Origin: a virus
Length of the DNA: 26,277 nt
Virus record (IMG/VR): IMGVR_UViG_3300012920_000225
Span: 1 to 26,277 of that record
Reading direction: 5' to 3' (one strand)
Of the stretch, positions 2,615-24,425 are shown piece by piece; position 1 is the first letter of the stretch; each line of letters opens with the position of its first letter. The translations under genes were made by a program, and so were the position numbers. The notes under the pieces are model-generated. The model saw nothing but the letters and a program-made list of their open reading frames with translations. It ran no database searches and had not been told where the DNA came from.

Positions 2615-3333
2615 TAGAAAAATGCAACCAAATGGCAAAGATGGCAGAGATTGCTTATCTTGACGGAGAAGAAGCTAAAGCCAGGTATAAAGACTTAGGT
2701 TACAGCTATCATAAATTTATAGAAAAGGATGGCGCTCAGTGCCATGTAGTCTGGAATAAAAATGAAATATCAGTGTGCTTTAGAGGTACAGAACCAGATG
2801 AATTTTCAGATATTAAAGCAGATTTAAACGCACTTCCAGATCGAGCGCATAACGGTCATGGATTTGTACACAACGGATTCCAAGAAGAACTTAATAAAGT
2901 ATGGGGAATCGTAGTAAATGTTTTAGATAAACACAAGACAGATAGAAAAGTTTATATTACAGGACACTCCTTAGGTGGAGCGATGGCAACTCTTGCAGCA
3001 AGTAGATGTAAACCGGATGCGTTATATACATATGGTTCACCTAGAGCTGGCACAAGAAAATTTGTAAAATCTTTTAACACACCACACTATAGGCATGTAA
3101 ATAATAATGATATAGTTCCTAAAGTACCTTTTGCTTTCTTAGGCTATAAGCACCACGGAACACTTAGATATATAAATTATTATGGAAACATTAGAAAACT
3201 TACATATTGGCAAAGACTTAAAGATCAGTGGAGAGGCAGAAAGCAAGCTTGGAAAAAGAAAGTTCCTTTTGACGGCGCCTATGATCATGGCATGGCCTAT
3301 TATGTAAAATACACGGAGAAAAATGATGGCTGA
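2611..3333 (+). CDS. Class 3 lipase / alpha-beta hydrolase
   Basis: This 240-residue protein matches the lipase class 3 fold. The nucleophile elbow GHSLGG is at 118-123 with Ser120; the Asp is likely D167 in NNNDIVPKVP, and the His likely H181 or H182 in YKHHGT. An oxyanion-type CFRGTEP lies at 56-62. The family hydrolyses acyl esters of lipids. There is no signal peptide, so it would act in the cytoplasm or on the inner leaflet unless released. It overlaps the stop of the preceding gene by 4 bases (ATGA) and has GGGAGGA as ribosome site. Such lipases recur in marine phage genomes; a role in lysis or membrane lipid remodelling is inference. Confidence 0.88.
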   Translation: MIEKCNQMAKMAEIAYLDGEEAKARYKDLGYSYHKFIEKDGAQCHVVWNKNEISVCFRGTEPDEFSDIKADLNALPDRAHNGHGFVHNGFQEELNKVWGIVVNVLDKHKTDRKVYITGHSLGGAMATLAASRCKPDALYTYGSPRAGTRKFVKSFNTPHYRHVNNNDIVPKVPFAFLGYKHHGTLRYINYYGNIRKLTYWQRLKDQWRGRKQAWKKKVPFDGAYDHGMAYYVKYTEKNDG

Positions 3334-3538
3334 TAATGATAAATTACCTAATGACATGCCTGAAGGAAAATTCGAAGTAGCTATTAGAATACTTGGAAAC
3401 GAGCTAATAGCTATGAAAATGATAGTTGATGATTTTAAAATGAAATGGGTTGTGATTGGATTGATAGCTATGGTAGCTATTTTGTGGGGAGCTTCAGAGT
3501 TTGGCCCTGCAATAGTAAATACTTTTGGAGTAGGTTAA
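3326..3538 (+). CDS. 70-residue single-span membrane protein
   Basis: Two ATGs in tandem (3323 and 3326) lie after a CGGAGA ribosome site; the second is chosen, though either works. The first 38 residues are an acidic then amphipathic helix, followed by one membrane span at about 39-58 (WVVIGLIAMVAILWGAS) and a short tail. The gene overlaps the lipase end by 8 bases and is followed directly by the next gene. No family recognised beyond a small phage membrane protein. Confidence 0.7.
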   Translation: MADNDKLPNDMPEGKFEVAIRILGNELIAMKMIVDDFKMKWVVIGLIAMVAILWGASEFGPAIVNTFGVG

Positions 3539-6206: not shown

Positions 6207-7445
6207 ATGTTTAATTTATACTCACCACTTAATAATGATGGTTGGCTTGACAAATCTCAATTTATTAGAACAGTTGTAGATCCTTATTCAGAAATAACTG
6301 GAAAACGCTATTACAATCATAAACAAATTTATGATAAAGTTGATAGCAAACAAAATAACATCATAATGCTAAGAGTTGATCCTGAATTGATGATATTCGG
6401 AGGAGACTTTAAGTATTATGATGTTGTTTCTTGGGCTAAAGATAACGACATAAAAGTTTACTTAGATTATTCTTGGGAAAGCGTGGACATTAACTCTACA
6501 GAAAACAAGTATTTGTTTCATAACAATCACAGACAATACATAGAAGATAATGACATAAAAATAATTTCACAGTGTTGGAACGGATGTAAGTATTCAGGAT
6601 ATGATTCTTCTATAGAAGATCGCATAATAAATTTTAGCACATTTGAATTTAACATAAGATTAGCTTATGAATTGCACAATAAACATTTTAATTTTATGTC
6701 ATCTCCTACTAATGAAAAGAAATATTTTGTAAACTACATACCAGGTGATATTAGAAAACATTTCTCTTCATTAGTTTTATATTTTTTATTAGAAAATTTT
6801 AAAGAAGAAGAAATTTTTTATTCTACTATAATAGGTGATTATTTTATAGAAGATAATATGAGTTGGGAAAAATCTTTTATAGACAGACTTATAAAAAATA
6901 TTTCTAGAAAAAATCAAAAAGTAGCAGATACATTTAAAAATGCAGCAGAATCAATAAGTAAGCTACATGTTCATAAGCCTTTCGAAGAAAAATACAATGT
7001 AAAATATGATGGTGTTATAAACCAAATGCAAGAGAGGGCAATTCCACCTGGAATATATGAAAGTAAGTTTAGTTTGATACAAGAAGTTGCTTGGGACAAT
7101 TATTTTTACACAGAAAAAACTTTTAAACATGTAATTGCTGAACAACCTTTTTTAATATTAAGTGGTCCTGGAGTTAATAGAGGAATGAAAGAATTAGATT
7201 ACGAAATATTTGAAGAAGTATTCAATTACACGTATGATTCTATAGTGTGGACCGATAGATCGGACTGGGGTAATAAAAGTAATTGTTTTTTAGGTGTTAT
7301 AGATAATATACAAAAGTTAAAAGAGAATAGTAACTTACTCTCTTTACCATCTGTTAAAGAAAAAACAACGTATAACAGACATAACTTGTTAAGAAGAACT
7401 AATATAGATATGTTTGAAAAAGAATTAGAAAGAATAGTATTATGA
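6207..7445 (+). CDS. Putative glycosyltransferase (GT-B-like C-terminal motif)
   Basis: The 412-residue protein begins at ATG 6207 after AGAGG; a GTG at 6201 is an alternative. The C-terminal third contains ESKFSLIQEV followed by YTEKTFKHVIAEQPFLILSGPG, the order 'S-L-I/V-x-E ... TEK-hydrophobic-K-x-h-h-A-x-x-P-F' seen in fucosyltransferase and exostosin-like glycosyltransferases, where it binds the sugar nucleotide. The N-terminal two thirds are very AT-rich and I cannot match them. Its stop overlaps the start of an NDP-sugar dehydrogenase (ATGA), so the two probably form one pathway, perhaps modifying host surface polysaccharide or the virion. The catalytic assignment is inference from a short motif. 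Confidence 0.6.
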   Translation: MFNLYSPLNNDGWLDKSQFIRTVVDPYSEITGKRYYNHKQIYDKVDSKQNNIIMLRVDPELMIFGGDFKYYDVVSWAKDNDIKVYLDYSWESVDINSTENKYLFHNNHRQYIEDNDIKIISQCWNGCKYSGYDSSIEDRIINFSTFEFNIRLAYELHNKHFNFMSSPTNEKKYFVNYIPGDIRKHFSSLVLYFLLENFKEEEIFYSTIIGDYFIEDNMSWEKSFIDRLIKNISRKNQKVADTFKNAAESISKLHVHKPFEEKYNVKYDGVINQMQERAIPPGIYESKFSLIQEVAWDNYFYTEKTFKHVIAEQPFLILSGPGVNRGMKELDYEIFEEVFNYTYDSIVWTDRSDWGNKSNCFLGVIDNIQKLKENSNLLSLPSVKEKTTYNRHNLLRRTNIDMFEKELERIVL

Positions 7446-8566
7446 ATATTGGATTTATTGGATTAGGTAAACTTGGCGCGCCTGTTGTAGAAGCAATAGA
7501 AGAAGCCGGACATAATGTACTAGGTTATGACGTAAATGGATTTGGCGTAAGTTCAATTAAAGAATGTGTAGAAGATAGAGAAATTGTTTTTATAGCTGTA
7601 CCTACACCACACGACCCATTGTATGATGGAAAATATGTTTGTAGTGACTTAGATCCAAAGAACTTTGACTACACAATAGTTCAAGAAGTTCTTAAAGAAG
7701 CAGATAAGCATATGAATCAAGAACAAATATTAGTGTTAATATCAACTGTATTGCCTGGCACAACTACCAAACATTTTGCTCCACTTGTCAATAACGCTAC
7801 GTTTGTCTATAACCCTTATCTCATAGCTATGGGAACCGTAAAGCAGGATTTTATAAAACCTGAAATGATTATGATGGGTTCTCAAGAGTCTTGGGCTATG
7901 GATAAACTAGAAAATTTTTACAAAGAAATGTGTGATTGCGATAGATACATTAGAGGTACGTGGGAAGAATGTGAATCTGTAAAAATATTTTACAACACTT
8001 TTATTACTACAAAGATAACCTTAGCTAATATGATACAAGACGTGGCAATGAAGATAGGAAACATGAACGTTGATGTTGTTACTGATGCTTTAGCTCATTC
8101 AACGCAAAGAATAATGTCACCAAAGTATATGAAAGCAGGGATGGGAGATGGCGGATCTTGTCATCCAAGAGATAACATAGCTTTAAGGTGGTTAGCTCAA
8201 GATTTAGACTTAGGATATGATATGTTTCAAACAATCATTGAAGCTAGAGAAATGCAAGCTAAAAACATGGCAAAATTTTTGACTGAACTATCTAATAAAC
8301 ATAACCTCCCCATTGTTATAGTAGGAAAAGGTTTTAAACCTGACGTTCCATATGAAGATGGCTCCCCTTCTATATTAGTAGCACAGTTCTGTGAAGCAGA
8401 GTTTGACAAATTCGATGAGCCAGCAGTCTTTCTTACTTCTCACTCGCATAATACCACTTTCGGTAAAACTAATAAAGATTATGATTTTCCTGAAGGATCG
8501 GTGATTGTAGATCCTTGGAGGGAAAGAGAAGGCGCCATACACTATGGTGACACTACTGTTTCTTAG
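7442..8566 (+). CDS. NDP-sugar dehydrogenase, UDP-glucose/GDP-mannose dehydrogenase family
   Basis: This 374-residue protein has an N-terminal Rossmann fold (GFIGLGKLG at 4-12, GLGKLG as the NAD loop), then VFIAVPTPHDP near residue 53 and STVLPGTTTK, both typical of UDP-glucose 6-dehydrogenases. The catalytic Cys is C240 in GDGGSCHPRDN. The central helical domain and a C-terminal UDP-binding-like domain (VIVGKGFKPDVPYEDGSP) follow in family order. The enzyme oxidises a sugar nucleotide to its uronic acid with two NAD+. GGSCHPRD replaces the usual GGSCFPKD, so substrate may differ. It overlaps the glycosyltransferase by 4 bases. Confidence 0.87.
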   Translation: MNIGFIGLGKLGAPVVEAIEEAGHNVLGYDVNGFGVSSIKECVEDREIVFIAVPTPHDPLYDGKYVCSDLDPKNFDYTIVQEVLKEADKHMNQEQILVLISTVLPGTTTKHFAPLVNNATFVYNPYLIAMGTVKQDFIKPEMIMMGSQESWAMDKLENFYKEMCDCDRYIRGTWEECESVKIFYNTFITTKITLANMIQDVAMKIGNMNVDVVTDALAHSTQRIMSPKYMKAGMGDGGSCHPRDNIALRWLAQDLDLGYDMFQTIIEAREMQAKNMAKFLTELSNKHNLPIVIVGKGFKPDVPYEDGSPSILVAQFCEAEFDKFDEPAVFLTSHSHNTTFGKTNKDYDFPEGSVIVDPWREREGAIHYGDTTVS

Positions 8567-8655: not shown

Positions 8656-9129
8656 ATGTCTAAAACGAAACTATGGAAGAAAGTAAGTAAGATGGATCTA
8701 GGAAACCCAGTAATCACCGCCCTCGTTGGTTTGGTGATTTTTTATATTGGACTAAAGACATTTTCTGGCGGCATGAAGTCAATGGGAAATATGGATCACC
8801 TACAATTCTTTTTAGGTAATCCAATCTATATGTTCATTGGTGGTATTGTCATGACGTTACTCTGGCAATCATCATCACTTTCTACTACTGCAATCATTGC
8901 ACTTGTGGCTTCAGGTGCTTTACCTTTACCTGCCGCAGTCGCTGCTGTGTTAGGTGCTAATATAGGAACCACCGGTACCATCTGGCTGGCTGGATTCTTT
9001 GTTTCAGATGGATGGCCTAAAGGAGATACATTGCGAATAGCAATGGCACATACGGGAATGAATCTCATGATGGCAATAGCACTCTTGCCCTTTGTGGGTA
9101 GGATTGCACAATTTCTTGGAAAGTTTTAA
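8656..9129 (+). CDS. Single-repeat Na/Pi cotransporter-like membrane protein
   Basis: The 157-residue protein has about four to five hydrophobic spans (about 17-37, 55-70, 78-100, 103-117, 127-148). It carries the Na/Pi cotransporter (PF02690, NptA/PiT II-like) signatures QSSS at 71-74 with TT following, and GANIGTT at 100-106. Full transporters have two such repeats in inverted order and often a PhoU-like tail; here only one repeat is present and both ends are intact, so this is a minimal half-size form, not a broken gene. It could work as a homodimer or modify host phosphate uptake. AAGGAT lies before the ATG. Phosphate-related genes are common in marine phages. Confidence 0.82.
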   Translation: MSKTKLWKKVSKMDLGNPVITALVGLVIFYIGLKTFSGGMKSMGNMDHLQFFLGNPIYMFIGGIVMTLLWQSSSLSTTAIIALVASGALPLPAAVAAVLGANIGTTGTIWLAGFFVSDGWPKGDTLRIAMAHTGMNLMMAIALLPFVGRIAQFLGKF

Positions 9130-9618: not shown

Positions 9619-10965
9619 ATGTTTGCTAAAATGTCTAGAGGTGAGTGGCTGAAGTACGGCAACAAAAGACCTGATGCTTTAAGATCGGCAATCAAAAATG
9701 GTGATCCTGTTCCTGATATAAATGGTAAGAGTTTGGATATACCAAACACTAAACAAAATATGGACGCCATCACAGATTTTTTAAACAACAAAGACTCAAC
9801 ATTCTTACTTACATTAAAAAATAAAAAGACTATTGTTTCTAATCAAATTGGCAAATCTCCGTTATTTGGAGGTAAAGGGAAAGGCGCTGGTGCGACTGGC
9901 GATACTGCGAAAGGTGAATCACTACAATGTTTATACTTAGCAGCTTTGTTTGGAGAAGGTAAGAACAAAGAATTTTCACACTTTACACCTGAGGTCTTGA
10001 AGAAATATTCTAAGGTTGTAGAAACAGACAAAACATTTGAAGAAATGATGAGCTCTGAAGCAGAGTGGCACATCTCAGCATATGTTTCTGGCCAGCACTT
10101 AATAAAAACTGGATACGCAAGATCTGATCATGTATTTCATAGAGGCTCAAGAGTAATGAACGCAATATACGCTATGAAAAAAATGGCTTTCAAAAATGAA
10201 GGTAAGCCAATGATGAATGATGACAAGTGGAATCCTGGTGACATTTGGGCTGTTAAAAAAGGCTTAAACGTTTCTTCAGTTTTAGATCCTACAACTATCA
10301 CCTCATTAAATGATAGTTTAAAACAAGCTTTTGAAAAAAGAACTATTGTAGGGATATCTTTAAAACAGATTAATAAGTTAACAAAAAAAGCAAAGCACAC
10401 AGAATATAATCTTATTCCTGAACCAGATAAAGCTCATAGGTATTCTAAGTCTACTTTGAAATCTGATAGAAAAGGTTCTAGTTACTGGTCCTTTAAAGGT
10501 GGATATATCTTCTATGATTCTTCTAAAAAGATGGACGTTAGAGCTCCAACCGCTCTAGGTTCAATAAACGTAGAGATTCAAGGAAAAGGCGCCAGAGGCG
10601 GTAGAGCTGGTTACGGCGCCATAATGTATGGTGCTGAGAATATCTTAAACGTTAAACTTCCGTCAAACAATGAGTTAAAAAGTATGTCTAAACTAATGAT
10701 GGCTGGAAGGAACGAAAGACTAGCAAAAAATTTACATCAAAAAGTTAGAAGGATACATCCTGATGTAGGATGGGATGATTTCTGGAAAGAGATGAAAGAA
10801 GCTCCAGCTGATAGAATACACGCAAATCTTGGAGCTACAGAAATCATATATAACTTAGATAAATCACCTTTAAAAAAGAGAGATGCCTTTGTAAGTTATC
10901 TTGTCAACTTAGCAGGATCTAAGACTGGCGACTCATCTGTCTATGTAAAAGTAGAATCATCGTAA
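9619..10965 (+). CDS. Conserved phage protein, possible PD-(D/E)XK-type nuclease
   Basis: This 448-residue protein starts after AAAGGAA. The N-terminal 40 residues (SRGEWLKYGNKRPDALRSAI) form a helix found in other phage proteins I recall. A Gly-rich segment at 84-95 leads into KGESLQCLYLAA (about 99-110). Further on are WNPGDIWAV (204-212) and GISLKQ (245-250). The order Glu100 ... Asp208 ... SLK(247-249) resembles the active-site layout of restriction-like nucleases, with Ser in place of the usual Asp/Glu; this is inference only. The rest is basic and Gly-rich. It is the first gene after the TTCG terminator and a late-type promoter box, and precedes the putative internal head proteins. Confidence 0.72.
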   Translation: MFAKMSRGEWLKYGNKRPDALRSAIKNGDPVPDINGKSLDIPNTKQNMDAITDFLNNKDSTFLLTLKNKKTIVSNQIGKSPLFGGKGKGAGATGDTAKGESLQCLYLAALFGEGKNKEFSHFTPEVLKKYSKVVETDKTFEEMMSSEAEWHISAYVSGQHLIKTGYARSDHVFHRGSRVMNAIYAMKKMAFKNEGKPMMNDDKWNPGDIWAVKKGLNVSSVLDPTTITSLNDSLKQAFEKRTIVGISLKQINKLTKKAKHTEYNLIPEPDKAHRYSKSTLKSDRKGSSYWSFKGGYIFYDSSKKMDVRAPTALGSINVEIQGKGARGGRAGYGAIMYGAENILNVKLPSNNELKSMSKLMMAGRNERLAKNLHQKVRRIHPDVGWDDFWKEMKEAPADRIHANLGATEIIYNLDKSPLKKRDAFVSYLVNLAGSKTGDSSVYVKVESS

Positions 10966-11008: not shown

Positions 11009-12238
11009 ATGGAAAATTTTAAAACACATATTACTGAGAATAAAAATACACATATGACTCACATAGAAGATCGTGTGATTTACGGTGGAGTAAAAGGAAC
11101 TCGCGAAGCAATATTTGCTCTTCGAGATCTAAGAGACATGCTTGGAGGAGTTAAAGATGGTAATGTATCTGTTAAGTGGGATGGCGCTCCTGCTATTTTT
11201 GCTGGCACTGATCCAAGTGACGGTAAATTTTTCGTCGCTAAAAAAGGCATATTTAATAAAAACCCTAAAGTCTACAAGACTGATGCTGACGTGGATGCTG
11301 ATACTTCAGGCGATTTGGCTGTTAAGCTTAAGCTCGCACTAAAAGAATTACCTGCATTAGGGATAAAAGGTGTAATTCAAGGTGATTTTCTTTATGGACC
11401 TGGTGATGTAAAAACACAGAAAATAAAAGGAAAATCTTATGTTACCTTTCATCCAAACACTATCGTTTATGCGTTGCCAGCTGAGTCGATGGGAGCTAGA
11501 GACGTTAAGAAATCAAAAATTGGAATTGTCTGGCATACAACCTACACTGGTAACACCTTCAGTTCTATGCGAGCTTCGTACGGAGTTGATGTCTCCAAGT
11601 TTAAGTCAACCAGAAATGTGTGGAGCCAAGACGCAACGCTCAGGGATTTAACTAAAGTAACTATGAACAAACGTGATACGGAGATTGTGAATGAACATCT
11701 TTCAAAAGCTGGTCAACTATTTAACAAAATATCAGGTACAACCCTCAGAGAGCTCGAAAAAAACAAAGAGTTACAGAGCCTCATTGAAACCTACAATAAT
11801 ACCTTTGTCAGAGCAGGCACGGTTATTGGAAATACAAGAGGACACGTATCTGGGCTTATTTCATGGATCAGCAAAAGATATAAAAAAGAAATAGACAAAA
11901 GAAAAACAGACAAAGGTAAAGCGGCTCAACAAGCAAAATTAGATACAATCTTAAACTTTTTTTCAAATAATAACAAAAAAAGTTTAGAAATGATGTTTGA
12001 ATTGCAAAAAGAATTAGTTTTAGCCAAATTAAAACTTATAAATATACTTAACAAATTGAGTAATATTGATACTTTTGTAAAAACTAAGAAAGGTTTTAAA
12101 ACGACAGGTCACGAAGGTTATGTAGCAATTGATAGACTTGGTGGTGACGCGGTAAAGATTGTTGATAGATTAGAATTTTCATACAACAACTTTTCGCCGA
12201 ATATATTAAAGGGATGGGACAAGCCAACGAGGAAGTAA
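11009..12238 (+). CDS. Nucleotidyltransferase/ligase-like protein with capsid-targeting-like N-terminus (DUF6267-like)
   Basis: The 409-residue protein begins with MENFKTHITE, like the T4 internal-protein leader MKTYQEFIAE, with a possible prohead protease site after ITE. I recall this family in T4-like cyanophages as DUF6267, function unknown. It shows, in order, VKWDGAPA (Lys56, KxDG as in ligase motif I), IQGDFLYG (123-130, like motif III), HEGYVAI (368-374, like motif IV) and VKIV (382-385, like motif V). This is the order of DNA/RNA ligases and capping enzymes, where the Lys carries AMP or GMP. About 240 mostly helical residues separate motifs III and IV, more than usual. Start: ATG at 11009, though an ATG at 11054 is possible; neither has a strong ribosome site. 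Confidence 0.75.
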   Translation: MENFKTHITENKNTHMTHIEDRVIYGGVKGTREAIFALRDLRDMLGGVKDGNVSVKWDGAPAIFAGTDPSDGKFFVAKKGIFNKNPKVYKTDADVDADTSGDLAVKLKLALKELPALGIKGVIQGDFLYGPGDVKTQKIKGKSYVTFHPNTIVYALPAESMGARDVKKSKIGIVWHTTYTGNTFSSMRASYGVDVSKFKSTRNVWSQDATLRDLTKVTMNKRDTEIVNEHLSKAGQLFNKISGTTLRELEKNKELQSLIETYNNTFVRAGTVIGNTRGHVSGLISWISKRYKKEIDKRKTDKGKAAQQAKLDTILNFFSNNNKKSLEMMFELQKELVLAKLKLINILNKLSNIDTFVKTKKGFKTTGHEGYVAIDRLGGDAVKIVDRLEFSYNNFSPNILKGWDKPTRK

Positions 12239-12670
12239 ATGTTAGGTTTTAAAGATATGATGGTCGTCGACTATGCACCCGGCGAACCAGTAGAAATAAA
12301 ATATAGAAGAAAACGCCGTAAAGTGCAAGACACTGAAGAGGCGTTATCAATTCCACAAAAAATGAAACTCGCTAGACGTATGTCTAAGCTAGCTCCACGC
12401 TTAAAGATAGCGCGGAAAAGAGCTATGATGAGAATGGCATCTAAAGAAAAGCTTAGAGGAAGAGCGAGGAAAGAAGCTCGTAATTTTTTCTTTTTGAAGC
12501 TTTCTAAAGGTGTACCAAAAGATCAATTACCTTATGCTCGTCGTGCAGAGATTGAAAAAAGGCTGGATAAGCCAGCAATGAAACAGAAGATAGATAAATA
12601 TGCAATGAGAATTTTACCAAAAGTTCGTAAGCGTGACAAAGAAAAATTAAATCGCGGTGGCAGTAAGTAA
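12239..12670 (+). CDS. Very basic conserved phage protein, probably nucleic-acid-binding virion protein
   Basis: The 143-residue protein is strongly basic (clusters such as KYRRKRRK and RKEARNFFFLKLSKG) and almost entirely helical. The beginning (MLGFKDMMVVDYAPGEPVEIKYRRK) and the downstream 'YARRAEIEKRL' are, as I recall, conserved in cyanophages. The first residues MLGFKD echo the leader-like starts of neighbouring genes but lack an obvious cleavage Glu. It abuts the preceding stop directly and shares the last A of its TAA with the ATG of the next gene. The charge suggests packing against DNA inside the head; this is inference. Confidence 0.8.
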   Translation: MLGFKDMMVVDYAPGEPVEIKYRRKRRKVQDTEEALSIPQKMKLARRMSKLAPRLKIARKRAMMRMASKEKLRGRARKEARNFFFLKLSKGVPKDQLPYARRAEIEKRLDKPAMKQKIDKYAMRILPKVRKRDKEKLNRGGSK

Positions 12671-13938
12671 TGCATACATCTTTTAAACAGTTTCTAGTAG
12701 AAGAAGAGAAGACGGTTTATTTTACATTTGGTAGAATGAATCCTCCTACTATTGGTCATGGTAAAGTGCTAGAAGCACTAGCTAAAAAGTCTGCTAAGAA
12801 TCCGTATAAAGTCTTTTTGTCTCAGACAAAGGATTCTAAGAAAAATCCACTTACTTATCAAGATAAAATAAAAGCTGTAAGGAAAATGTTTCCAAGACAT
12901 GCTCGATCTATCATGCTTGATAAAAAAGTAAAAAATGCTATGGAAGCTGCCTCTTCACTATACGATGAAGGATATAAAAACCTAGTCATGGTAGTAGGTT
13001 CTGATAGAATAAATGAGTTTTCAACTCTACTAAAAAAATATAATGGCAAAGACGGTAGACATGGCTTTTACAATTTTAAAAATATAAATGTAATTTCAGC
13101 TGGAGATAGAGATCCTGATGCTGAAGGAGCTACAGGAATGTCAGCAACTAAGATGAGAGAGTTTGCTAGAGAAAACAACTTTACTTCATTTAGCCAAGGA
13201 CTACCTAAAAACGTTTCTAATCCTGATGCTAAGAAAATGTTTAACGATGTAAGAAAAGGCATGGGATTGAAAGAAGAAAATGAGTTTAAAAGACACGTAC
13301 AATTAGAAACAGTTTCCGAAACAAGAGAAGCTTTTGTAAGAGGGGAATTGTTTGAAGTAGGGCAAGATGTCATAATAGAAAAGACCGGTGAAGTTGGTAA
13401 GATTGAAATCATTGGATCTAACTACGTAATAGTAGATATAAATGGTAATAGATCAAGGCAATGGCCAGAAGCTATAGAGATAGTTGAAGAGATGAAATAT
13501 GATTATGGAAGTCCTGAATCTGTAAAGCTCATGAAGAAGATGACACCAGGCCAAAATGAGTCAGATGAGAGAAAAAAAGGATCACCTCAAGATCCTGATA
13601 TAAAAGATAGAAAAGGTACTCAGCCAAAAGCTTACCATGCAGGCCTATCAAAAGCACAAAAGATTTCAAGAGATCGCCAGTTTAAGAGACAGTCTAAGAT
13701 GGATGATGATAATCCAGCGGCATATAAACCAGCGGCTGGAGATAAGACAGCAAAGACTAAACCATCTAAACACACTAAGAGATTTAAAGATATGTTTGGT
13801 GAGGATATACCTTCTCATGAAAAAATGGCGAAGGAAAGAATAAAAAAAATAAAAACTAATAATGCTAAAAGGTTCGACAGAATGATGGACCGTGCTAGAA
13901 ATAGAGATACTAATAAAAAGAATAGAGAGACAAAATGA
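12670..13938 (+). CDS. HxGH-type adenylyl/cytidylyltransferase with basic C-terminal tail
   Basis: This 422-residue protein starts with a leader-like MHTSFKQFLVEE. The catalytic domain spans about 15-185: FGRMNPPTIGHGK at 20-32 (TIGH replaces HxGH), VVGSDR at 108-113 and GMSATKMREFA at 156-166, equal to the ISSTxxR motif. The family moves a nucleotide from ATP or CTP onto a phosphate, as in NMN or pantetheine-phosphate adenylyltransferases; the true substrate is unknown. After it come a beta-rich KOW/SH3-like segment (about 222-275, VGQDVIIEKTGEVGKIEIIG) and a basic low-complexity tail with AAYKPAAGDKTAKTKPSKHT, a stretch I recall from cyanophage proteins. It overlaps the next gene by 4 bases. 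Confidence 0.85.
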   Translation: MHTSFKQFLVEEEKTVYFTFGRMNPPTIGHGKVLEALAKKSAKNPYKVFLSQTKDSKKNPLTYQDKIKAVRKMFPRHARSIMLDKKVKNAMEAASSLYDEGYKNLVMVVGSDRINEFSTLLKKYNGKDGRHGFYNFKNINVISAGDRDPDAEGATGMSATKMREFARENNFTSFSQGLPKNVSNPDAKKMFNDVRKGMGLKEENEFKRHVQLETVSETREAFVRGELFEVGQDVIIEKTGEVGKIEIIGSNYVIVDINGNRSRQWPEAIEIVEEMKYDYGSPESVKLMKKMTPGQNESDERKKGSPQDPDIKDRKGTQPKAYHAGLSKAQKISRDRQFKRQSKMDDDNPAAYKPAAGDKTAKTKPSKHTKRFKDMFGEDIPSHEKMAKERIKKIKTNNAKRFDRMMDRARNRDTNKKNRETK

Positions 13939-14189
13939 TTACATTTAAGACTTATATAGCTGAAAAAGCTACAGCAGCTTTAAAGAAGAAAGCTGAAAAG
14001 AGTGGAATGCCTCTTGGTATTCTTAGACAAGTTTATAATCGTGGTGTAGCAGCTTGGCGTACAGGACACAGGCCTGGCACTAATCCACAGCAATGGGGTC
14101 TAGCTCGAGTAAATTCATTTACAACAAAGTCCTCAGGTACATGGGGAAAAGCTGATAAAGATCTAGCAGCAAAAGTAAGAGGTAGTTAA
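13935..14189 (+). CDS. Small phage protein with capsid-targeting-like leader (DUF5824-like)
   Basis: The 84-residue protein begins MITFKTYIAE, ten residues that line up without gaps with T4 MKTYQEFIAE and end in IAE, a gp21-type cleavage site. The remaining domain (SGMPLGILRQVYNRGVAAW, then TGHRPGTNPQQWGLARVNSF) matches a small phage family that I recall as DUF5824, function unknown. It overlaps the preceding gene by ATGA and is 1 base from the next. It is the clearest candidate here for an internal head protein. Confidence 0.85.
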   Translation: MITFKTYIAEKATAALKKKAEKSGMPLGILRQVYNRGVAAWRTGHRPGTNPQQWGLARVNSFTTKSSGTWGKADKDLAAKVRGS

Positions 14190-14190
14190 G

Positions 14191-15594
14191 ATGTCAAAAG
14201 CTAACGAAAATGTCAGAAGTGCAGATAAAAAACCTGAAATGTACACTAAGCCAGATGGAAAACGTGGCGTTAGAATGGTTGCAGTAGATAGAGAAATTGT
14301 TAAAAAGGACGCTAAGACCGAAGGCGCGATGAAGCGTATGGCAACTTCTCAATCTAGTAAACCTGACAGGATGGCTGGAAAAGGTTTAGACACCTATAAG
14401 AAAAAACCAGCAGAAATTATTCGTAGTAAAAAGCCTATATATAAATTAGTTCGTGACACTCTTCCTCGATATGATCAAGCAAGACGTCAGGAAGAAGCAT
14501 ACATTGATCATAGATCTGACAAAATAGGCCCATCAAATGTAGGTATGACACATTCCAAAGCTGAAAAAGCACACAGAGATATGGCTTCTAAACTAGCGAG
14601 TAGTCATAAAAGAACAGATTTGCATAGTGGAAGGAACTCAGTTGGTGATGTAATTAAAATGCATAAAAATGCAGCAGATCAACACGCAAAAGCATTGCGA
14701 GCTCATAACGCTGGTAAACATAGTCAGGCAAGAAACCATGCTAATAAAGCATCAAAACATGGTACTGATATATTTAATGCACATGCAAATGCAATTGGTG
14801 ACGCGAAAAAACATTCTTCAGCAGGAGTAGATGCTGTAAGTCATTCTCATGATGCTGAAAAGCGTAGTATTGCTAGTAAAGAAGCACAAAAAAATCAAAG
14901 AGAATCTACAGTTTATGAAGCATACAAAGTAGGACAAACCGTTAAGCCTACTAAAGGACCACATGCTGGTCAAGATCATGAAGTTATTCATGTTCATGGT
15001 GATGGTTCATATAATATCAAGCCGAAAAACATGCCAGCAAGCAGAATCAGATATAGACTAGGTGCTGCTAGAGCTAAGCATAATGAGTTAAAAGAAGCGT
15101 TAAAGGTATCTGATGGTATGGGTGCATGGATAGATGATTTCTCTAAATCAGACGCACCACAGTTTAAAGGCAAAAACAAAAAAGAAAAAAGAGACATGGC
15201 AATAGCTGCTTATCTTTCTGCAAAGAAAAATGAATCTAAAGAAATCGAAGAAAAGAAAATCACTCTTAGTAGAAAGCAGATGGATAGAGCTTTAGCGAAG
15301 GCAAAGGCAAAACCAGCCAGTCAAGTATCTTTAGCAAAAGCACCTTTTAAAATTCCCTCTAAAGACAGTAAATTAGATGAAGATACTCATACTGTCGATA
15401 TTGATCATATGGGCGGTCACGATTCTAACGCTAAGAAGCACAATATAACTATTAAAAAGTCTAGCGGTACTGACTATGCACATAGTGCTACAGGTAAGAA
15501 AAAAGATCTTCAAAAATATTTAGTTAAACATTATGATGATCATGAGACTGCAAAAGAAATTCACCCAGAAGTTTTTAAAGGGCATAAATCATGA
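14191..15594 (+). CDS. Multi-segment basic, His-rich phage protein, likely virion
   Basis: This 467-residue protein is a chain of separate segments. Residues 1-60 include KKPEMYTKPDGKRGVRMV, a stretch I recall in cyanophage head-region proteins. Residues about 115-235 are a His/Ala-rich helix with repeated AxxH spacing (KAEKAHRDMA, AADQHAKALRAHNAG). A KOW/SH3-like beta segment follows (VGQTVKPTKGPHAGQDHEVIH, about 248-290), then LKVSDGMGAWIDDF and SDAPQFKGKNKKEKRDMAIA, again recalled from cyanophages. The end is a small His-rich domain (TVDIDHMGGHDSN). Internal VYEA and LKEA match (L/I/V)xE-A sites for a prohead protease. It overlaps the next gene by ATGA. Confidence 0.75.
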   Translation: MSKANENVRSADKKPEMYTKPDGKRGVRMVAVDREIVKKDAKTEGAMKRMATSQSSKPDRMAGKGLDTYKKKPAEIIRSKKPIYKLVRDTLPRYDQARRQEEAYIDHRSDKIGPSNVGMTHSKAEKAHRDMASKLASSHKRTDLHSGRNSVGDVIKMHKNAADQHAKALRAHNAGKHSQARNHANKASKHGTDIFNAHANAIGDAKKHSSAGVDAVSHSHDAEKRSIASKEAQKNQRESTVYEAYKVGQTVKPTKGPHAGQDHEVIHVHGDGSYNIKPKNMPASRIRYRLGAARAKHNELKEALKVSDGMGAWIDDFSKSDAPQFKGKNKKEKRDMAIAAYLSAKKNESKEIEEKKITLSRKQMDRALAKAKAKPASQVSLAKAPFKIPSKDSKLDEDTHTVDIDHMGGHDSNAKKHNITIKKSSGTDYAHSATGKKKDLQKYLVKHYDDHETAKEIHPEVFKGHKS

Positions 15595-15944
15595 AGTTTA
15601 AAAGTTATATGGAAGAAGAAATAGATCTAACTTGTGAAAACTGTGATCTGTACGAAGATATGGAAATAACAGAAGCAGAGTATCAAGGGAAAAAGGTTAA
15701 ACTGAATGATCCTATTCGTACTTCTGAGAATCCAAATAAAAAGTTTAAAGTTTATACTATGGGCCCAAATGGAAAAGTTGTAGTTGTAAGATTTGGTGAT
15801 CCAAATATGGAAATCAAAAGAGATGATCCTGCGCGGCGTAAGAGCTTTAGAGCTCGCCACAATTGTGATAATCCTGGCCCTAAGTATAAAGCTAGATATT
15901 GGTCATGTTACCAATGGCGTGGATCATCAAAGGTAGATAACTAA
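15591..15944 (+). CDS. Conserved phage protein with leader-like N-terminus
   Basis: The 117-residue protein starts MKFKSYMEEE and then an acidic, Cys-containing segment to about residue 28, ending ITEA, which fits a gp21-type site (I-T-E before A29). The mature domain starting EYQGKKVKLNDPIRT and including FGDPNMEIKRDDP, ARHNCDNPGPKYKARYWSC is a family I recall from many tailed phages, with no clear enzymatic role. Four Cys at NC, CE, HNC and SC could bind metal. It overlaps neighbours by 4 bases upstream and 1 base downstream. Confidence 0.82.
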   Translation: MKFKSYMEEEIDLTCENCDLYEDMEITEAEYQGKKVKLNDPIRTSENPNKKFKVYTMGPNGKVVVVRFGDPNMEIKRDDPARRKSFRARHNCDNPGPKYKARYWSCYQWRGSSKVDN

Positions 15945-23155: not shown

Positions 23156-24013
23156 ATGATTCTAATTGATTTCAATGGTATTGCTATCGGCAATGTAGTG
23201 GTGCAAAGACTGGCTGCGGATGAAAATCTCATACGCCATATGATTCTAAATTCTATTCGTATGTATCGTCAGAAGTTTCATAAAGAATTTGGAGAAGTGG
23301 TTATTGTTGCCGATGGCGCAGGTAACTGGCGCAAAGAAGCATATCCACAGTATAAAGCTAATCGTAAAAAATCACGTGACGAGTCATCTATTGATTGGGA
23401 AAACGTCTTTCGTATTATCAATATGGTACGTGACGAAATACGTGATAATTTTCCATACAAGGTCATGCATCAATATGGTTGTGAGGCAGATGACGTCATA
23501 GCACAAATCGCTCTAGAAACTCAAGAGTTTGGCAAGCACGAACCAGTAATGATTGTTTCAGCTGACAAAGATTTTATACAGTTACAGAAATACGATAACA
23601 TAAAACAATTCTCACCTATGACTAAAAAATATGTCAAACATGACAATCCGCGTCTATATATGATGGAACACATTTTCCGCGGAGACGGTGGCGACGGAGT
23701 CCCTAATGTGCTGTCTGATGACAATGTCTTTGTTGAGGGCCGTAGACAATCTCCAGTAACAAAAAAGAAAATTGATTCTTGGATTCAATCAGAAGATTTA
23801 AAAGAAGCTATGGGTCAAGACATTTATCGTAACTTTTTACGTAACAAAAAAATGATAGATTTAACAGAAACTCCTCAAAATATAAAATCTGAGATTATAA
23901 ATAACTATGAGAATCAAGATCCATGGAAAAACAAAAGTAAGGTGTTTCCATATCTCATTGAAAAAAGATGTAAATTATTATTAGAAAATGTTCAGGAGTT
24001 TATTAATGGTTAA
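23156..24013 (+). CDS. rnh: T4-type RNase H, 5'-3' flap exonuclease
   Basis: The 285-residue protein fits T4 RNase H (305 residues), which removes RNA primers and a few DNA bases from lagging-strand fragments. The acidic metal-binding residues of the FEN/5'-nuclease family are visible: Asp5 (LIDFNG), Asp53 (VADGAGNWRK), the QYGCEADD cluster with Glu110, Asp112 and Asp113, SADKDF with Asp137 and Asp139, and RGDGGDGVPN further on. KANRKKSRDE supplies the basic helical arch. GTTAGGAG lies upstream of the ATG. It overlaps the next gene by 8 bases; both serve replication by context. Confidence 0.9.
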   Translation: MILIDFNGIAIGNVVVQRLAADENLIRHMILNSIRMYRQKFHKEFGEVVIVADGAGNWRKEAYPQYKANRKKSRDESSIDWENVFRIINMVRDEIRDNFPYKVMHQYGCEADDVIAQIALETQEFGKHEPVMIVSADKDFIQLQKYDNIKQFSPMTKKYVKHDNPRLYMMEHIFRGDGGDGVPNVLSDDNVFVEGRRQSPVTKKKIDSWIQSEDLKEAMGQDIYRNFLRNKKMIDLTETPQNIKSEIINNYENQDPWKNKSKVFPYLIEKRCKLLLENVQEFING

Positions 24014-24425
24014 AAGTGTTTATGAGGTAATTGAAGAAGCCAGAAAAAAACGATCCAAAGATGAAAAAGTAAAAGTACTAAGAGAAAATGAATCATGGGC
24101 TCTTAAAGACATACTTAAAGGAACTTTTGATGATTCTATTAAATGGAATCTTCCAGTCGGAACCCCTCCATACAAAGCAAATGAACCGCATTCTGCTCCA
24201 GGCAATTTACTGAGAGAGAACAAAAAGTTTGCGTATTTTGTGAAAGGTGGTAAAGGCGATAAGTTAATGAAAGCTAAGAGAGAGCAGATATTCATTGGAT
24301 TACTAGAAACAGTAGAACCTAAAGACGCGGAGCTAGTTGTAGGAATGATTAACAAAAAGATGCCAGTAACAGGAATTACCAAAGCAACAGTACAGGAGGC
24401 TTTTCCAGGATTAATAAAGTCGTGA
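24006..24425 (+). CDS. DUF6433-like conserved T4-like phage protein
   Basis: The ATG at 24006 is chosen because AGGAG lies 7 bases upstream; the longer frame from 23988 starts before that site. The 139-residue protein has KSVYEVIEEARKKRSKDEKV, then LRENESWALKDILKGTFDDSIKWNLP, PPYKANEPHSAPGNL and a helical end (DAELVVGMINKKMPVTGIT). This order matches a cyanophage/T4-like family I recall as DUF6433, with no proven function. It lies directly after RNase H, the usual context being replication and late-transcription genes. A terminator follows. Confidence 0.82.
   Translation: MVKSVYEVIEEARKKRSKDEKVKVLRENESWALKDILKGTFDDSIKWNLPVGTPPYKANEPHSAPGNLLRENKKFAYFVKGGKGDKLMKAKREQIFIGLLETVEPKDAELVVGMINKKMPVTGITKATVQEAFPGLIKS

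Follow-up and report, generated by a model that had tools for sequence, protein, structure and literature searches.

The DUF6267 protein encoded by the viral DNA analysed here is, judged from its predicted fold and its active-site residues, very probably a divergent covalent nucleotidyltransferase, and we place it in this superfamily as a new family outside the known ligase families. As the best explanation of its cellular role we propose that it acts as the phage's own polynucleotide ligase, which we consider probable, with DNA and RNA as almost equally plausible substrates and DNA slightly ahead. The analysed DNA, called the window in the following, is the entire stretch of 26,277 nucleotides of the IMG/VR record IMGVR_UViG_3300012920_000225.

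Gene, Family, and Distribution

The gene at positions 11009–12238 of the plus strand is an open reading frame with an ATG start encoding 409 amino acids. In the Pfam search its product matches DUF6267 (PF19782) over residues 13–397 with an E-value of 6.1e-104, and its score of 348.8 bits passes the gathering cut-off of 27. The protein belongs to the PHROGs family phrog_455, and the DUF6267 genes of the phages S-PM2, P-HM2, P-SSM2, and S-SM1 are annotated as T4-GC 71. The three names denote the family of the window protein itself, to which neither Pfam nor PHROGs assigns a function. Using tblastn, the DUF6267 protein matches 457 of 50,697 phage records at an E-value of 1e-3, mostly Synechococcus and Prochlorococcus phages together with a few phages of Methylophilales, Pelagibacter, Stenotrophomonas, Vibrio, and Pseudoalteromonas. 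A limited literature library yielded no paper for the terms DUF6267, DUF6433, PF19782, or PF20025; in the accessible portion of PMC3037559 the word ligase occurs once in the main text, as a tRNA ligase, and the accessible portion of PMC4360716 contained nothing relevant to the DUF6267 question. Regarding the surroundings of the gene, the product of 9619–10965 just upstream belongs to phrog_1462 and contains a stretch GDIW...GISLK that by eye recalls the core of PD-(D/E)xK nucleases, and 8656–9129 encodes a Na+/Pi-cotransporter-like protein of 157 amino acids (PF02690, E 1e-15).

Conserved Active-Site Motifs

Relatives were collected as six sets from viral contigs with the proteins of the window, HTVC008M, P-HM2, DLP6, Syn30, and S-WAM1 as queries. 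From 490 loci and the window, 205 sequences non-redundant at 90% were obtained, entries below 270 amino acids having been dropped before the count. The homologous reading frames were chosen with the pattern K.DG.P[AS], and the resulting selection bias is small because 490 of the 491 loci contain such a frame, the single exception being a frame-split record of S-PM2.

The preliminary description had assigned the motifs I, III, IV, and V of a ligase or capping-type nucleotidyltransferase to VKWDGAPA (K56), IQGDFLYG (D126), HEGYVAI (E369), and VKIV (K383), and all of these are found where it placed them. It had named a lack of conservation of K56 and E369 among homologues as an argument against the assignment; both residues are kept in 205 of 205 sequences. 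The same holds for D58, G59, K79, D126, G370, and K383, and, further along the protein, for D21, G30, P61, G66, P69, F74, F75, F82, Q124, P149, N150, Y154, H176, T177, Y179, N264, K340, V372, R387, F390, S391, N394, and F395, while N13, H15, H18, and E20 are nearly invariant. All seven residues counted as those of the preliminary description lie within the 33 invariant columns of alignment A1 (hypergeometric P 1.2e-8). The features are compiled in Table 1, in which the names Ia and IIIa were assigned by spacing and by eye.

Ligases usually carry Glu in motif III and two lysines in a K-x-K motif V. Compared to this pattern, the K-x-D-G of motif I is present in all 205 homologues and additionally in the phage XG4, the acidic residue of motif III is provided throughout by D126, i.e., Asp for Glu, and the E-G of motif IV and the Lys of motif V follow motif III in the expected order in all 205 sequences. 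The second Lys of the K-x-K of polynucleotide ligases is missing: position 385 is Val in 199 and Ile in 6 of the 205 homologues, and the invariant R387 follows four places after K383. Even the divergent DUF6267 protein of XG4 keeps KMDGAPA, QGD, PNT, PEGYV, and KLVDR. Judged by the alignment range only, the element N13–D21 corresponds in position to the element that RNA ligases have upstream of motif I.

TABLE 1. Features of the DUF6267 gene and of associated genes in the window.
Feature	Position	Strand	Basis
12-residue leader resembling the T4 capsid-targeting sequence, before the core starting at N13	11009..11044	+	pattern
Upstream element N13-x-H15-x-x-H18-x-E20-D21	11045..11071	+	conservation
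Motif I, VKWDGAPA, with K56 as predicted nucleotide-accepting Lys	11174..11197	+	sequence, conservation
Candidate motif Ia, FFVAKKGIFN (74–83), K79 invariant	11228..11257	+	conservation
Motif III, QGDFL (124–128), D126 for the usual Glu	11378..11392	+	conservation
PNTIVY (149–154), P149, N150, Y154 invariant	11453..11470	+	conservation
Candidate motif IIIa, WHTTYT (175–180), H176, T177, Y179 invariant	11531..11548	+	conservation, model
Predicted helical insert, residues 221–348	11669..12052	+	AlphaFold model
Motif IV, HEGYVAI (368–374), E369, G370	12110..12130	+	sequence, conservation
Motif V region, VKIVDR (382–387), K383 and R387 invariant, Val for second Lys	12152..12169	+	conservation
Small, very basic protein, adjoining DUF6267 in 77 of 79 loci of the window lineage	12239..12670	+	neighbourhood
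Nucleotidyltransferase of the HIGH fold (cytidylyltransferase-like), carrying a leader; conserved partner	12670..13938	+	profile, tblastn
T4 RNase H-type 5' nuclease, overlapping the next gene	23156..24013	+	–
Stand-alone DUF6433, a relative of the helical domain with which ATP-dependent DNA ligases bind DNA	23988..24425	+	profile matches

Predicted Fold and Structural Matches

The AlphaFold2 model of the window protein (114 sequences) has a pLDDT of 90.2 and a pTM of 0.86, and that of the short form from the Syn30-type, in which most of the helical insert is absent (54 sequences), a pLDDT of 91.0 and a pTM of 0.87. In a VIA-align comparison the window model aligns best with the RNA editing ligase (1xdn, Z 7.9, 189 residues, 4.0 Å), and further with the Naegleria ligase (5cou, Z 7.8, 183 residues, 4.0 Å), T4 Rnl2 (2hvq, Z 7.1, 176 residues, 4.1 Å), T4 Rnl1 (2c5u, Z 7.0, 169 residues, 3.9 Å), and human LIG1 (7kr4, Z 6.0, 170 residues, 4.7 Å). 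The short form aligns best with the Naegleria RNA ligase 5cou (Z 8.6, 174 residues, 3.8 Å), and also with T4 Rnl1 2c5u (Z 8.0, 155 residues, 3.6 Å) and 1s68 (Z 7.1, 169 residues, 4.1 Å). These Z values are at the edge of what is meaningful, as a Z below 8 may reflect merely a common arrangement, and the Foldseek search against the PDB gives weak matches, with a best E-value of 0.16 for the window model and 0.011 for the short form. All of the best 50 VIA-align rows of the short form are ligases; for the window model there are 41 ligases and 9 rows of DnaK, which we read as probable matches of the helices alone since only 71–82 residues are aligned. Capping enzymes and NAD+-dependent ligases are absent from the best 50 rows of both models, which excludes neither class. 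It is therefore the uniform list of ligases, the order of the motifs and the invariance of the residues taken together, rather than the Z value alone, from which we argue for a nucleotidyltransferase fold. The preliminary description was right about the enzyme class, and the structure prediction it had proposed as a check supports the nucleotidyltransferase fold.

The unusually long, presumably helical segment noticed earlier between the motifs III and IV appears in the window model as the helices 221–348, forming an insert between motifs III/IIIa and IV that is reduced in the short homologues of about 300 amino acids, and after motif V only a single helix is predicted. In the VIA-align alignment of the short form the aligned chain ranges are 143–339 in 5cou and 72–252 in 2c5u; both begin 27 residues before the motif I Lys (K170 and K99, respectively, taken from the titles of the K170M and K99M mutants), compared to 34 residues in DUF6267.

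From these features a catalytic cycle can be proposed. A nucleotide donor would first be attacked at its alpha phosphate by Lys56, and the resulting adduct would most likely be Lys56-AMP, with D126, E369, and K383 placed around the nucleotide. The AMP would then be passed on to a 5'-phosphate end, and the 3'-OH would close the break. The helical insert would substitute for a C-terminal OB domain in holding the substrate.

Relation to Known Ligase Families by Sequence

In the Pfam search the window protein has no match to PF01068, PF01653, PF09414, or PF09511, and for 114 DUF6267 homologues the listed 25 of 104 families include neither PF09511 nor PF09414. Weak matches of DUF6267 members, such as those to SWI2_SNF2 and Ago_PAZ_arc, were regarded as fortuitous. 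The phmmer search and the profile of alignment A1 gave no match to a known ligase among the PDB chains, and the NCBIfam search gave no ligase family. Using hhalign, the alignments A1 and A2 did not match two viral RNA-ligase alignments, and those two also missed each other at the active site, so that this negative carries no weight. An ATP-dependent DNA ligase would combine a PF01068 match with a C-terminal OB domain, and DUF6267 has neither. Because the sequence match, the K-x-K of motif V, and the OB domain are all lacking, DUF6267 is set outside the known ligase families. The same points, together with the weak Foldseek result and the borderline Z values, count against the ligase reading, as does the presence of PF01068 in addition to DUF6267 in the phages DLP6 and XG4 and in the records G004 and G011, and of DUF6433 without DUF6267 in the phage Mosig.

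A Possible DNA Ligase in Two Parts

Which other ligases the carriers of DUF6267 encode was determined for 21 records, comprising 10 named phages and 11 IMG/VR records of 129–195 kb whose completeness is not stated. PF01068 is found in three of them (DLP6, G004, and G011), PF09511 in two (G004 and G011), PF09414 in one (G011), and PF01653 in none; 18 of the 21 contain none of these four families. The gp30 of DLP6 is also reported in PMC5349666. Beyond these records, XG4 encodes DUF6267 plus PF01068. The idea that DUF6267 replaces gp30 everywhere is rejected, as DLP6, G004, G011, and XG4 have both. Of the 10 regions from named phages that were viewed, 7 have a gene for a replicative helicase close to DUF6267, mostly accompanied by uvsX/recA; the regions of DLP6, P-SSM2, and S-N03 do not. 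The preliminary description had suggested that the enzyme could seal breaks made by host defence; the location near helicase genes would suit an ordinary replication ligase as well.

The window encodes a second protein related to ligases. The product of the DUF6433 gene matches PF20025 (E 6e-29) and, more weakly, phrog_114, a profile of phage ATP-dependent DNA ligases (4e-5), as well as PF04675 (0.0078, below the cut-off). Its sequence can be aligned to the DLP6 gp30 N terminus (pair E 3e-6) and to PSSM2_317 of P-SSM2 (AAX44695.1, E 1e-15), the latter being the stand-alone ligase DNA-binding domain named in PMC7824862. According to that study, most jumbo phages of the P-SSM2 type have no known DNA ligase and yet keep the ligase DNA-binding domain, and a recruitment of the host ligase was proposed (PMC7824862). 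DUF6433 was detected in 20 of the 21 DUF6267 records, G008 being the exception, and by tblastn in 449 phage records compared to 457 for DUF6267, with nearly the same organism names. Although DUF6433 is present in 20 of the 21 records, PF04675 gives nothing above the cut-off in any of them; DUF6433 is too divergent for this model. The DUF6433 gene follows the RNase H gene in the Sinorhizobium phage phiM7 as well. In the tblastn tallies, phiM7 and the Caulobacter phage Cr30 (the latter by name only) have DUF6433 without DUF6267, and their ATP-dependent ligases of about 370 amino acids have N termini unlike a DUF6433-type domain. The Pelagibacter phage Mosig contains DUF6433 and lacks DUF6267, PF01068, and PF01653. 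Two annotations stand out: the DUF6433 gene 2938–3504 of S-SCSM2R is annotated as DNA ligase and seems to encode the DNA-binding part only, and gp196 of phiM7 (7383–7877), annotated as RNA ligase, matches the anti-CBASS protein Acb1 and is likely misannotated.

These observations fit a role of DUF6433 together with whichever ligase core a phage has, DUF6267 included, without proving it; shared phage ancestry may be an alternative cause of the co-occurrence. As a narrower form of the ligase reading we tentatively put forward, as one possibility, that DUF6267 is the catalytic and DUF6433 the DNA-binding part of a DNA ligase acting in trans, which would process Okazaki fragments jointly with the RNase H-type nuclease and would be the DNA ligase these phages seemed to lack. 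The near-constant pairing of both domains, the profile matches of DUF6433, its position at the RNase H gene, its association in phiM7 and Cr30 with ligases showing no such domain, the vicinity of DUF6267 to replicative helicase genes, and the jumbo phages that carry the domain while lacking a known DNA ligase argue for it. On the other side, DUF6267 and DUF6433 are encoded at distant places of the genome, four phages have a conventional ligase besides DUF6267, Mosig carries the DUF6433 domain alone, the closest folds are RNA ligases, and the host DNA ligase could serve instead. Within the preferred reading, it is the neighbourhood of replication genes in 7 of 10 phages, the lack of other ligases and the pairing with DUF6433 that slightly favour DNA as the substrate, while the nearest folds and a kinase found in one lineage favour RNA repair.

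The HIGH-Fold Partner

A conserved neighbour of DUF6267 is the HIGH-fold gene, which by tblastn follows it in 366 of 388 loci with room for it (by group 73/73, 59/61, 57/57, 44/64, 63/63, and 70/70). Of 352 aligned copies of the partner, 349–352 keep G-R-x-N-P-P, G-H, G-x-D-R, and S-x4-R; G-R-x-N-P-P was itself part of the pattern by which these copies had been selected. In the later S-PM2 record LN828717 the two proteins are fused in one ORF of 591 amino acids, a fusion also found in BFVD; the reference record NC_006820 of the same phage splits DUF6267 over two frames. The nearest named relatives of the partner, by weak matches, are NMN/NaMN adenylyltransferases (TIGR00482, E 6e-5; phrog_3462, E 2e-4), and a phmmer search of it against the PDB gave weak matches to unrelated proteins only. 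A link to NAD+ is a lead only, because these named relatives are weak matches.

In another reading, DUF6267 is a covalent nucleotidyltransferase that does not join ends. It might instead cap RNA or modify a protein or small molecule with an NMP, acting in one pathway with the HIGH-fold partner. The constant partner gene, its fusion in S-PM2, its distant relation to the NMN/NaMN adenylyltransferases, and a motif V without the second Lys are in agreement with such an enzyme, which we nevertheless regard as doubtful, as the nearest folds are ligases; that no capping enzyme is found among the best 50 VIA-align rows speaks in the same direction and excludes nothing.

Capsid-Targeting-Like Leader and Possible Delivery With the Phage Head

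According to PMC9026906, the first 10 residues of the T4 internal protein IPIII are enough to direct it to the capsid; residues 4 and 7 serve targeting, and 8 and 10 processing. The corresponding residues in the leader of the window DUF6267 protein are F4, H7, I8, and E10. The leader-like start mentioned in the preliminary description was borne out as a pattern: 4 of the 42 window genes carry it (starting at 11009, 12670, 13935, and 15591), compared to 0.026 expected from shuffles (mean of 500). By this pattern, the window protein and three neighbours begin like T4-type capsid-targeted proteins, with a leader some 10 residues long whose end is prohead-protease-like. The small genes 13935–14189 and 15591–15944 encode candidate head-packaged proteins.

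Among non-redundant DUF6267 sequences the leader occurs in 35 of 49 found with the window query, 48 of 56 with the DLP6 query, 1 of 15 with the HTVC008M query, and 3 of 9 from named phages, and in none of the P-HM2 (0/22), Syn30 (0/25), and S-WAM1 (0/28) groups. On the HIGH-fold partner, a slightly looser pattern finds it in 73 of 73 Syn30-type, 52 of 80 S-WAM1-type, and 0 of 78 P-HM2-type copies, counts which are not independent as the loci inside a group are close relatives. This distribution makes head packaging of DUF6267 and its partner plausible in several lineages and not universal; a leader general to DUF6267 is rejected, and since the P-HM2-type has it on neither gene, head delivery is not generally needed for function. 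Of the earlier proposal that the enzyme is delivered inside the head, the leader pattern in the window lineage thus stands, while a general need for delivery does not.

A second narrower form of the ligase reading would be an RNA repair ligase that rejoins tRNA or other RNA after cleavage by host defence and that is delivered with the head in some lineages. It draws on the RNA ligases as best structural rows, on the leaders, and on a P-loop kinase that 44 of 58 loci of the HTVC008M lineage encode downstream of DUF6267; in HTVC008M itself this kinase (6730–7392) lies between DUF6267 and the HIGH gene, and it is weakly similar to phage polynucleotide kinase (phrog_505, E 8.5e-8). We consider it unlikely, as the kinase is rare at the DUF6267 locus of the other groups (1/70, 0/54, 5/63, 0/59, and 0/69) and G004 and G011 keep DUF6267 alongside a known RNA ligase. 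PF13671 was useless as a marker of polynucleotide kinase, as 24 of 26 records match it and just 11 of these above the cut-off.

NAD+-dependent ligases release NMN, and all the components can be combined, very speculatively and with little likelihood, into a nick-sealing module fuelled by NAD+: an RNA-ligase-like core formed by DUF6267, the HIGH-fold partner turning NMN back to NAD+, and DUF6433 acting in trans would replace the DNA ligase that T4-like marine phages are missing and, in some lineages, would reach the host together with the phage DNA. A last reading, an inactive fold retained for a structural or binding role, could cite the leader on some copies; it is scarcely credible, given that the active-site residues stay invariant even in homologues of about 30% identity.

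Comparison With Known Ligases

T4-like cyanophages are widespread ocean viruses, and with DUF6267 present in most of the tested DUF6433 carriers, the way in which those phages seal DNA becomes directly testable. With T4 Rnl1 (gp63, PF09511), DUF6267 shares the motif order I, III, IV, and V and a conserved element upstream of motif I, which reads N-x-H-x-x-H-x-E-D in DUF6267 and K-F-F-N-x-x-E in Rnl1; moreover, its P-N-x-I-x-Y after motif III resembles by eye the P-x-N-x-I-V...Y of the Rnl1 alignment A4. It differs from Rnl1 in having no PF09511 match, no Rnl1 C-terminal domain, one Lys in motif V, and Asp in motif III. The Rnl2/Rnl5-like enzymes (PF09414), i.e., the Naegleria RNA ligase, T4 Rnl2, and the RNA editing ligase, are the best structural matches of the DUF6267 models, from which DUF6267 is distinguished by the lack of a PF09414 match and of an OB domain and by its large helical insert. 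With the ATP-dependent DNA ligases of the T4 gp30 type it shares the nucleotidyltransferase core and neither the PF01068 match nor the OB domain; it co-occurs with a stand-alone ligase DNA-binding domain, which in the T4 gp30 type is not a separate gene. For a ligase, it would be uncommon to be stably paired with a HIGH-fold enzyme and to carry a capsid leader.
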